Assembly: GCA_958430865.1 (NCBI GenBank)
Contig: CAUDNR010000724.1
Coordinates: 8,540-72,539, forward strand
Reading direction: 5' to 3'
Source of the DNA: Entrophospora sp. SA101
Lineage: Eukaryota; Glomeromycota; Glomeromycetes; Entrophosporales; Entrophosporaceae
DNA: 64,000 nt
Shown here: in pieces, positions 2,679-29,754 of the stretch
How the letters are laid out: every line of letters begins with the position of its first letter
Numbering within the stretch: position 1 is the first letter of the stretch
The notes under the pieces: model-generated
What the model was told of the DNA's origin: nothing
What the model saw: only the letters and a program-made list of their open reading frames with translations
Database searches by the model: none
Made by a program: the position numbers and the translations under genes

Positions 2679-3234
2679 CTATAATAAAGATTTTTATTAT
2701 TATAACCACTACAAGTATTTACTCGTATAACAACTACATATACTATTATTGCTAGTATAATAATTATCAATTGTTTCTAAATTTTGTGGTAAGTAGACAC
2801 ACTTTTTTTTAAATGATGCGTTATGCTTTTTGAAGATTTTTATTATGATACTATTCTTATATTGTTGTTGCTTTATATTATTATAATTATGGTTTTTGTA
2901 ATAGTAATGTTATTTGTCATATAAGTAAATCACCTTACGAAATTTTTTTTGCAACTTGTTGTTATTATTATTACGAATTCATTACGCTGCAAAACTACCA
3001 CTAATCATAATCACGGAAATTACTAATATGTAATAGTAATAGTAATACTGATGCTAATACAAAAAAAAAAATAATTTGTTGACTCGTGTTCACCAAAAAA
3101 AACTTTTGTAGGAAAATACATATTTAACGAATCACAATTATTTGTATGATTAAAATAACATATTTCTTGTCACACACACTCCAGGTCATAGTAATTCAAT
3201 CGACCTTTCTTGACTTGAAAATTATGGGTTAAAA

Positions 3235-3654
3235 ATGTCCTGTCAGCCAGTCCTTTTGTTTGGTGTCATCACTGCTCTATGTATCACACCTTCAAGAAGC
3301 CAAGGCAACAAACATTATTTTACTGTGTCTCAAAAATCCATCAACCACTCACAGGTACATACATATACAACAACCTTCTCTGTTTTTACAATCTTAACAA
3401 TGGTCATCATGGTAGCGTCGCCAATGCTACAAATGGGAAAACGATTTTTTTCTATGGCGGATGAGATCTTTCTGGGTAGAAAGCTTGTGCAAATCATTGC
3501 AAACGAAATAGAGCAGACCTATTCAAGTGTTGAGAGTGCCAACAATAATGACAAAAATGGATCTCTGTGCAAAGCGTTGAAACCCAGACATCTGGATTTT
3601 GAAGAAAAATTCACAAGCTCTAACAGTGATAAGAAAGACTATGGATTATGTTGA
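3235..3654 (+). CDS. doubtful ORF, possible secreted protein (left copy)
   Basis: An open frame of 139 codons. The first ~22 residues are hydrophobic (LLFGVITALCI) and could be a signal peptide. A second hydrophobic stretch lies near residues 45-66. The C-terminal half is polar. An overlapping frame (3279-3464) ends in a phrase reminiscent of a kelch blade (ATNGKTIFFYGG), so the real structure, if any, may be spliced or a broken kelch gene. No family is recognised with confidence. The identical copy is at 28679-29098 on the minus strand. Confidence 0.25.
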   Translation: MSCQPVLLFGVITALCITPSRSQGNKHYFTVSQKSINHSQVHTYTTTFSVFTILTMVIMVASPMLQMGKRFFSMADEIFLGRKLVQIIANEIEQTYSSVESANNNDKNGSLCKALKPRHLDFEEKFTSSNSDKKDYGLC

Positions 3655-5078
3655 CAGTGACTTGAGTAAAAAAAAAGAGAAGTGTGTGCTGCGATATATA
3701 TATATAGAAGAATCAAGTACATCAAGGAAAACAAAACTGGAAAATGCAATGAGAACAGTTGTCAGTAATGGTAGCAATAATAAATGAAAGGTTGTGTGGA
3801 TGATGTAGTATATAGAAAATTTGTACAATGTTGACAACAATAAAATTGAGAATAAAATAGAGGCAAATGGTGAAGATTATGAGAGTTGTGATACTGAATA
3901 ATTTACTATTCTTATTTTAACAAGGCATGCATGCCATTGATATCCAAAAATAAAAATGCCATCTTCTATTTTATACATCTTTGATTTTCAAACCTGATAT
4001 TGTAAAATCTCTATCTGCTGCATCAAATACTTTTTTTTTTTTGCAAATCAAATATTTTATTAAAAAAACGCGTAACAATGTATTTTTTTGTACAGCTTCA
4101 AGGCATGGTGAAAAAAATTACAACTCGCACAAGATATCATCTTGGAATAAAAAAATCACGGATATTATGTACTTGGGGTTTACAAATGGTAATTTAACAA
4201 TTAAAATAGTAATGGCAAAGTTGATGTTTTATTTTAAAGCTATTGTAATTCAAGAAGCCATGAATTAATTTTTTCCACACATGTAAACTCGATAAAGGTA
4301 GTTTTAGCCTAACTTGGCCAAAATTTTTCATTCCCAATATATTTATAATCACTATAATAAATAAATCGAGTAACCACAAGTCGGTTTCGCGTGAATATAT
4401 TACTTACATGACTAAGTCTTCGAATTTGATTGGTGATTAGTTTTTGTTACATGGGATGAAAATACTTGCAGTCAAATACAAAACTCGTTTTGTTTCCCAG
4501 CATTGTAATAGATATGATACAAAAAAAAAAGGAATTTGTTCTTTATTTTGATTTTATTAAGAAAAAAACTTCCCGAGTAATTGATTGCACGGAAGAAAAA
4601 ACTCGGACCTAAAGTCATTCATGAGTATATGGTCATTCTGGCACAAACCTACACTACACTCTCATTGTTCTTTAATCTCCATTTCAATCTCGGATTTCTT
4701 TTACCGTTTTCATAGTTATTATTGCATGGACTTTTCTCTCCAAATAATTCATGATGTCGGTTGCTATTTGTTTGAACATTTTCCAGATATTTATTTCTTG
4801 ATTTGTGATTTTTTTACGATCTGATTTATATTATGACCAAGCAAAAACCCTAATACTAACCATAAAAAATTTCAGTTCAAAAATTTCCCATACGTGCTGA
4901 TTGGCTGATTTGAATTTCGCGCGTAATCATAATGACATCACTTTAAACATTTATCACATGCGAATTATATAAATGGACTAAACATTATGTCGTACTAACA
5001 TTGTAATAATTCCAACATATAAATTCCCAGGATCAATAAAAAAAAATTTCCTAAACATTTCTTTATAATAAAATAATC
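3655..5078. other. left arm: no convincing gene
   Basis: AT-rich sequence with short chance ORFs (3981-4268, 4585-4824) lacking codon structure or motifs I can recognise. The last ~150 bases hold the presumed promoter of the gene starting at 5079, including a GCGCGTAATCAT stretch at about 4920 that resembles one at about 115. Confidence 0.6.
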
Positions 5079-27254: not shown

Positions 27255-28678
27255 GATTATTTTATTATAAAGAAATGTTTAGGAAATTTTTTTTTATTGA
27301 TCCTGGGAATTTATATGTTGGAATTATTACAATGTTAGTACGACATAATGTTTAGTCCATTTATATAATTCGCATGTGATAAATGTTTAAAGTGATGTCA
27401 TTATGATTACGCGCGAAATTCAAATCAGCCAATCAGCACGTATGGGAAATTTTTGAACTGAAATTTTTTATGGTTAGTATTAGGGTTTTTGCTTGGTCAT
27501 AATATAAATCAGATCGTAAAAAAATCACAAATCAAGAAATAAATATCTGGAAAATGTTCAAACAAATAGCAACCGACATCATGAATTATTTGGAGAGAAA
27601 AGTCCATGCAATAATAACTATGAAAACGGTAAAAGAAATCCGAGATTGAAATGGAGATTAAAGAACAATGAGAGTGTAGTGTAGGTTTGTGCCAGAATGA
27701 CCATATACTCATGAATGACTTTAGGTCCGAGTTTTTTCTTCCGTGCAATCAATTACTCGGGAAGTTTTTTTCTTAATAAAATCAAAATAAAGAACAAATT
27801 CCTTTTTTTTTTGTATCATATCTATTACAATGCTGGGAAACAAAACGAGTTTTGTATTTGACTGCAAGTATTTTCATCCCATGTAACAAAAACTAATCAC
27901 CAATCAAATTCGAAGACTTAGTCATGTAAGTAATATATTCACGCGAAACCGACTTGTGGTTACTCGATTTATTTATTATAGTGATTATAAATATATTGGG
28001 AATGAAAAATTTTGGCCAAGTTAGGCTAAAACTACCTTTATCGAGTTTACATGTGTGGAAAAAATTAATTCATGGCTTCTTGAATTACAATAGCTTTAAA
28101 ATAAAACATCAACTTTGCCATTACTATTTTAATTGTTAAATTACCATTTGTAAACCCCAAGTACATAATATCCGTGATTTTTTTATTCCAAGATGATATC
28201 TTGTGCGAGTTGTAATTTTTTTCACCATGCCTTGAAGCTGTACAAAAAAATACATTGTTACGCGTTTTTTTAATAAAATATTTGATTTGCAAAAAAAAAA
28301 AAGTATTTGATGCAGCAGATAGAGATTTTACAATATCAGGTTTGAAAATCAAAGATGTATAAAATAGAAGATGGCATTTTTATTTTTGGATATCAATGGC
28401 ATGCATGCCTTGTTAAAATAAGAATAGTAAATTATTCAGTATCACAACTCTCATAATCTTCACCATTTGCCTCTATTTTATTCTCAATTTTATTGTTGTC
28501 AACATTGTACAAATTTTCTATATACTACATCATCCACACAACCTTTCATTTATTATTGCTACCATTACTGACAACTGTTCTCATTGCATTTTCCAGTTTT
28601 GTTTTCCTTGATGTACTTGATTCTTCTATATATATATATCGCAGCACACACTTCTCTTTTTTTTTACTCAAGTCACTG
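27255..28678. other. right arm: no convincing gene
   Basis: Mirror of 3655-5078. Confidence 0.6.
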
Positions 28679-29098
28679 TCAACATAATCCATAGTCTTTC
28701 TTATCACTGTTAGAGCTTGTGAATTTTTCTTCAAAATCCAGATGTCTGGGTTTCAACGCTTTGCACAGAGATCCATTTTTGTCATTATTGTTGGCACTCT
28801 CAACACTTGAATAGGTCTGCTCTATTTCGTTTGCAATGATTTGCACAAGCTTTCTACCCAGAAAGATCTCATCCGCCATAGAAAAAAATCGTTTTCCCAT
28901 TTGTAGCATTGGCGACGCTACCATGATGACCATTGTTAAGATTGTAAAAACAGAGAAGGTTGTTGTATATGTATGTACCTGTGAGTGGTTGATGGATTTT
29001 TGAGACACAGTAAAATAATGTTTGTTGCCTTGGCTTCTTGAAGGTGTGATACATAGAGCAGTGATGACACCAAACAAAAGGACTGGCTGACAGGACAT
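28679..29098 (-). CDS. doubtful ORF, possible secreted protein (right copy)
   Basis: Mirror of 3235-3654. Same doubtful status: a hydrophobic N-terminus that could be a signal peptide and no recognised family. Confidence 0.25.
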   Translation of the reverse strand: MSCQPVLLFGVITALCITPSRSQGNKHYFTVSQKSINHSQVHTYTTTFSVFTILTMVIMVASPMLQMGKRFFSMADEIFLGRKLVQIIANEIEQTYSSVESANNNDKNGSLCKALKPRHLDFEEKFTSSNSDKKDYGLC

Positions 29099-29754
29099 TT
29101 TTAACCCATAATTTTCAAGTCAAGAAAGGTCGATTGAATTACTATGACCTGGAGTGTGTGTGACAAGAAATATGTTATTTTAATCATACAAATAATTGTG
29201 ATTCGTTAAATATGTATTTTCCTACAAAAGTTTTTTTTGGTGAACACGAGTCAACAAATTATTTTTTTTTTTGTATTAGCATCAGTATTACTATTACTAT
29301 TACATATTAGTAATTTCCGTGATTATGATTAGTGGTAGTTTTGCAGCGTAATGAATTCGTAATAATAATAACAACAAGTTGCAAAAAAAATTTCGTAAGG
29401 TGATTTACTTATATGACAAATAACATTACTATTACAAAAACCATAATTATAATAATATAAAGCAACAACAATATAAGAATAGTATCATAATAAAAATCTT
29501 CAAAAAGCATAACGCATCATTTAAAAAAAAGTGTGTCTACTTATCACAAAATTTAGAAACAATTGATAATTATTATACTAGCAATAATAGTATATGTAGT
29601 TGTTATACGAGTAAATACTTGTAGTGGTTATAATAATAACAATAATTAATAATTATCATAGTAATTGTAATAGTAATAGCCATTGTGACTGTAGTTGTAA
29701 TTATAATAGCTGTATTGGTAGCGTTAATAATAATATCATCTATAATAATGTCAT
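29099..29754. other. right arm outer end and junction
   Basis: The arm runs to 29639 without a gene. Then come about 115 bp of AT-rich, AAT/GTA-rich low-complexity sequence before coding similarity to a retroelement begins. Confidence 0.6.

Follow-up and report, generated by a model that had tools for sequence, protein, structure and literature searches.

The 27-kb palindrome in the window, by which we mean the whole stretch of 64,000 nucleotides analysed here (C653 of the Entrophospora sp. SA101 assembly, positions 8540-72539), is probably a product of assembly rather than of biology, in which a false duplication was combined with a scaffold join. As far as the assembled letters allow its history to be read, the right contig, comprising the spacer, a MITE, the right arm and a retroelement flank, would most likely be the true locus, and the left contig, comprising the left flank, the left arm and a transposon, would most likely be a second rendering of the same arm. 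The left contig would have entered and left the arm through repeats, and the scaffolder would then have placed the two contigs head to head across a 10-N placeholder. We infer that no separate molecule stands behind the left arm and that the join was made by the scaffolder. The left contig looks like a mosaic, and each of its parts has a home or close relative outside it: three other contigs carry the flank, the right contig carries the arm, and the remainder is found in repeats. The first-pass annotation had offered three origins for the symmetry, namely a very recent inverted duplication, continuing gene conversion between the arms, or an assembly or amplification chimera; we favour the third, and take it to be a false duplication whose copies were scaffolded together at the 10-N gap.

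Geometry and identity of the arms

The features that define the palindrome are as follows.

2694..13893, plus strand: left arm, 11,200 bp, compared base by base
18440..29639, minus strand: right arm, the reverse complement of the left arm
2789 (partner 29544), unstranded: sole mismatch between the arms, 95 bp inside the outer end

The first-pass annotation held that each position x of the left arm is the complement of position 32333-x, with one mismatch at 2789/29544, and base-by-base comparison bears this out over the full 11,200 bp. The symmetry is lost immediately outside the arms, at 2693 and 13894, and BLAST stretches the match to 2690/29643 with 2 mismatches in 11,204 bp. Like a genomic palindrome, the window thus has two long arms that are inverted and nearly identical, and the match between them is far above chance expectation. 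The left arm has a single private base relative to the right arm in 11,200 bp, a count that comes from comparison of the assembled arms.

The position of this one mismatch is informative. A single random difference would fall this near either arm end with a probability of 1.7%, and inward of it the next 11,104 bp have no difference at all. If the assembler built a k-mer graph, differences near the end of a repeat would survive, while interior ones can merge. A lone mismatch 95 bp from the end followed by 11,104 identical bases supports an assembly origin. The private base at 2789 itself counts against that origin. A pair of copies on contig C590, described below, has two interior differences and departs from the end pattern of a k-mer graph.

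A search of the genome itself with 2694-4694 and 8800-13893 found no full-length match besides the two arms, and the arm pieces searched have partial relatives on C1110 and C1521, with up to 95% identity over about 1.4 kb. The right arm had no megablast match in the plasmid collection, and a plasmid origin was set aside on that ground.

The spacer and its gap

The arms are separated by a spacer of 4,546 bp (13894-18439), in which the first-pass annotation overlooked a run of N.

15451..15460, unstranded: placeholder gap of exactly 10 N, joining the left-arm contig to the right-arm contig
15461..16231, unstranded: first stretch of the right contig, which lies in a further repeat with copies on C1376, C1551 and, from 15689, C908

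This is the only N run in the window, and since it falls between the arms, the arms sit on two contigs joined over a gap. The left contig runs in the order left flank, left arm, transposon and second repeat, and the right contig in the order repeat, MITE, right arm, retroelement flank and further genes. Placeholders of 10 N are what SPAdes writes. The palindrome depends entirely on the join of two contigs over a gap of unspecified size, and the uninterrupted sequence that would link the arms of a genomic palindrome is broken by the 10 N in the spacer. The cruciform and the long double-stranded RNA that had been proposed as consequences are without support while the join is unproven. A gap between copies is among the features of false duplications in the excerpted text of PMC9516828, and here it lies at 15451-15460.

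The spacer also bears on a plain chimera, made as an inverted copy by multiple displacement amplification (MDA) and read as a hairpin, an explanation so improbable here that we almost discount it. Inverted chimeras of this kind usually have short loops and lack separate outer flanks. In the window the spacer measures 4,546 bp and the outer flanks differ; this form of the third origin offered earlier is thus a poor fit, since the flanks of the arms differ at both ends and the spacer is long. Published assemblies of arbuscular mycorrhizal fungi (AMF) were made with SPAdes from MDA-amplified nuclei, according to the excerpts of two reports (PMC10512289, PMC6987183), and palindromic reads are reported from MDA in excerpts of two others (PMC6218980, PMC13265396). 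Nevertheless, a hairpin fits poorly with arms that end in different outer sequence and with a 4.5-kb spacer that has several elements.

Inner junctions

The inner ends of the arms lie within mobile elements, as listed here.

13786..15237, plus strand: left inner end, initial portion of a TIR transposon copy that begins within the arm and is 98.7-98.8% identical to elements on C474 and C675
15227..15450, plus strand: second repeat family, ending at the gap and overlapping the transposon by 11 AT-rich bases (15227-15237)
18081..18547, plus strand: complete MITE of 467 bp with 35-bp inverted ends, spanning the inner edge of the right arm

The element at 18081-18547 has the properties of the MITE class, being short, with terminal inverted repeats (matching at 33 of 35 positions) and recurring many times at the same length; among the best 40 of 526 candidates, which were scored, near full-length copies with 88-98% identity lie on many contigs. 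The 6.3-kb elements on C474 and C675 have both ends in common with the MITE, over 105-110 bp on one side and, with 89% identity, over about 358 bp on the opposite side. By eye, TA stands at both ends of the MITE and of these two elements, with no longer duplication common to all three. Where the right arm has a complete MITE, the left arm has, at that site and in that orientation, the beginning of a longer relative. The two match over 108 bp of transposon end (13786-13893), after which the left copy follows the long element; the inner edge of the arm is thus the place where two members of a transposon family stop being alike. The second repeat family carries the left contig on to the gap; 10 other full or nearly full matches to it begin at the identical base.

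That a MITE and its longer relative occupy one site and share 108 bp of one end supports an origin in assembly. That two family members inserted independently at one and the same base of each arm is improbable, and a path switch inside the shared transposon end explains the change of element. Recombination between transposons in the organism would explain it too, and it counts against an assembly origin that such recombination could give the same junctions. The left transposon copy differs from the C474 and C675 elements by 12 and 13 scattered differences, respectively. These differences of its own indicate that a real, distinct element exists somewhere, and they likewise count against an assembly origin. 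The C474/C675 pair has 11 scattered differences in 6,332 bp and the C1376/C1551 pair 7 in 2,731 bp, as would be expected of ordinary related copies.

Outer junctions and flanks

The outer ends of the arms meet the following sequences.

1..2703, unstranded: left flank, multi-copy by genome comparison, carrying exon 1 of a minus-strand aspartate aminotransferase gene
2694..2703, unstranded: outer left junction, with a 10-bp AT overlap, TTATTATTAT, common to the arm and the left-flank family
29756..31218, plus strand: right flank, degraded LTR-retroelement pol fragments (RT, RNase H)

The assembly has five occurrences of the left flank: in the window, on C1466, on C1341 and in two mutually inverted copies on C1547, one of which starts only at flank position 35. 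Leaving alignment ends aside, the four other copies differ from that of the window by only one indel, with no interior substitutions, and C1341 equals C1466 over at least 7,874 bp, as far as the end of contig C1341. Both the five occurrences without interior substitutions and the identity of these two contigs support an assembly origin of the palindrome. After 2703 all four other copies run into sequence different from that of the window, which makes the junction of flank and arm unique to the window among the copies found. This junction, with its 10-bp AT overlap and the different continuation of the other flank copies, also argues for assembly.

Two further candidates were rejected on the evidence of the flanks. 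Two haplotypes by themselves would not suffice, since five copies of the left flank exceed what two haplotypes give. Giant terminal inverted repeats of one transposon would not fit either, as no common target duplication was seen, the sequences directly outside 2694 and 29639 are unlike each other, and a small separate element ends at the inner edge.

The flanks are also where one may ask whether both 11.2-kb copies are real, in different places or in two nuclear genotypes, with only their head-to-head placement being false. The second copy could then come from a template switch during replication, which could have entered through the shared 108-bp transposon end and left at the 10-bp AT overlap. 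Each arm has different flanks on both sides, the left arm has its private base at 2789, and of the two junctions one fits homology and the other microhomology, all of which agree with two real copies. However, the left flank is one of five without interior substitutions, which points to redundancy of the assembly, and the searched arm pieces had no full-length copy on another contig, only the partial relatives on C1110 and C1521. We therefore regard two real copies as unlikely and continue to prefer a false duplication joined by the scaffolder.

Genes in the arms and in the window

A kinase gene and an ORF of the left arm have mirrored counterparts in the right arm.

6999..10164, plus strand: kinase gene in the left arm, mirrored at 22169-25334 on the minus strand
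12397..13170, plus strand: ORF in the left arm, mirrored at 19163-19936 on the minus strand, with named relatives all from Glomeromycotina

The kinase gene consists of four tandem N-terminal units with a period of about 590 bp, followed by one kinase C-lobe, and the ORF at 12397-13170 may be Crinkler-like. A Pfam search with 8 ORFs inside the arm returned only kinase matches and one weak match below threshold. The first-pass annotation had both a kinase and a mitochondrial-type gene doubled; the kinase does lie inside the arms, whereas the one candidate met for the mitochondrial-type gene, the aspartate aminotransferase, has its exon outside, with matching residues at or below 2679 where the arm begins at 2694, and this exon is not doubled.

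Elsewhere in the window, a PIKfyve-type protein encoded at 35430-39719 is 93% identical to one of Entrophospora candida and 70% to a protein of Entrophospora sp. SA101, and its next named matches are from other arbuscular mycorrhizal fungi. No second copy of this gene above 80% was found in the genome itself, where 36000-39000 matches one copy at 100%. Redundancy of the assembly is thus not total, and this single gene counts against reading the palindrome as a product of assembly.

Duplicates and gaps elsewhere in the assembly

The assembly searched comprises 101.35 Mb in 2,123 contigs, and it holds a second palindrome on C1547, to whose arms the left flank of the window belongs. Of the 54 differences between the inner arms of this palindrome (28763-43162 and 60521-46105), 52 fall within the first 757 bp and 2 at the end, with 13,636 bp between them that are free of differences. 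The outer part (25000-28775 and 64505-60720; 3,776 bp) has 37 differences, and these count against an assembly origin. In the 2.9-kb spacer of the C1547 palindrome there is a 10-N gap at 45462, so that both palindromes have such a gap between their arms, which supports that origin.

If the 27-kb palindrome were real, having arisen by recent inverted duplication or having its arms kept identical by conversion, this would account for a single mismatch in 11,200 bp that lies close to an end, as expected where conversion stops, and the second palindrome in the same genome, with its sharp borders of identity, agrees with it. However, a gap of unspecified size lies in the spacers of both palindromes, exact identity is also found between different contigs, where neighbouring arms cannot explain it, and the inner edge coincides with the shared transposon end; we hence consider a real palindrome highly unlikely. 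Very little credence can likewise be given to the broader proposal that large duplications of recent date, both inverted and direct, are numerous in the genome and have their breakpoints in transposon ends and AT microhomology; arms such as those on C653 and C1547 would then be kept identical by conversion or be very young and would amplify kinase and effector-like genes.

The distribution of short gaps also speaks for the false duplication. Three direct copies on C1505 have gaps at 37387 and 59036, and the first of two copies on C590 ends at 10267, directly before a gap at 10268. In the 42 loci examined there are 6 distinct short N runs, each of exactly 10 N, and five of the six, including the only one in the window, lie between duplicate copies. 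By length, 0.93 would be expected there (11 contigs, 244,520 called bases), or 1.27 when two gapless pairs (the 1,260-bp pair on C1505 and that on C636) are added; as the 11 contigs were picked for duplicates and not for gaps, the count is an indication and not a genome-wide estimate.

The gapless pairs on C1505 and C636 count against an assembly origin. C1505 has its 1,260-bp pair and an overlapping 332-bp tandem pair, the latter left out of the count of gaps between copies, and neither has 10 N between its copies. A 10-N gap between the C636 copies had been predicted beforehand and is absent in the stretch 9200-11500; the second copy runs into a long N run at 12842, which is either a gap or a masked stretch. 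The C590 pair has 2 differences, both interior, and these too count against assembly.

Chaperonin genes are normally single-copy in fungi. In this assembly, a PF00118 family search with loci grouped by hand and PIKfyve-type hits kept apart found six of seven chaperonin groups present at least twice. In four of these six, a pair of copies scores identically across every matched exon (C1455 twice, C399/C1438, C514/C636 and C1569/C2110). Such repetition, in part with identical scores, is further support for false duplication.

Implications

Read literally, the palindrome would point to kinase and effector-like genes being rapidly amplified in inverted form in a mycorrhizal fungus. If it is instead a product of assembly, gene-family expansions and duplication counts derived from this assembly are probably inflated, housekeeping genes included, and read-depth checks are needed before such counts are used.

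Comparison with known systems

As far as the excerpts go, the matches listed for palindromes or segmental duplication with Rhizophagus, and those listed for tandem kinases, held nothing pertinent. Mammalian Y chromosomes carry large palindromes that are kept alike by gene conversion between arms. The window resembles them in its long, almost identical inverted arms around a spacer, but its spacer is broken by a gap, its outer left flank is multi-copy, and equal identity is here also found between different contigs. As in the inverted chimeras of MDA (PMC6218980, PMC13265396), the inverted copies in its sequence data would be artificial. For AMF assemblies, the excerpted text of PMC6987183 gives more duplicated genes in workflow 2 and few in workflow 3, and workflow 3 was used in PMC10512289, again according to an excerpt.

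The signs of false duplication given in the excerpted part of PMC9516828 are read depth that is halved (heterotype) or very low (homotype), discordant or spanning linked read pairs, and k-mers present in one copy (heterotype) or absent (homotype). The copies in the window are unlike the false duplications of that source in being inverted and in having different flanks at both ends. They resemble them in that near-identical copies lie on one scaffold with an assembly gap between them, in that copies are found on other contigs too, and in that normally single-copy genes are repeated.

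The kinase gene and related arrays

The kinase gene carried by both arms of the palindrome contains tandem N-terminal units.

6999-10164 (mirrored as the reverse complement in the right arm at 22169-25334): kinase gene, four header-plus-N-lobe units followed by a single C-lobe

The four units recur with a period of ~590 bp and are 80-84% alike, and all of them retain the intron donor GAG|GTRA; the intron acceptor is missing after unit 3. Such arrays recur elsewhere in the genome: at least three consecutive kinase-unit matches were counted by hand at at least 15 further loci, among the 40 of 1,779 candidates for which scores were computed. 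A part of them may be twins created by the assembly.

Genes outside the palindrome

35430-39719: PIKfyve-type gene
49172-54239: SCAP-like gene; an NPC1-type luminal domain and a match to the SCAP N-terminus (slightly below its cut-off) precede WD40 repeats

A second version of the PIKfyve-type gene, with 80% DNA identity, lies on contigs C1222 and C1162 of the same assembly (equal scores); it could represent a paralogue or point to mixed material. Toward the right end of the window lie more repeats, at 56935-59990 and 61637-63493 (identity 80-94%).

Putative Crinkler-like ORFs in the arm

11600-13170: adjoining ORFs within the arm, the last at 12397-13170

A relative (95%, ~1.4 kb) is found on contigs C1110 and C1521, and the named matches of the last ORF are all from Glomeromycotina. 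One of the ORFs starts with a P-loop-like motif, GKTSL, and as a group they are similar to Crinkler-type effectors.
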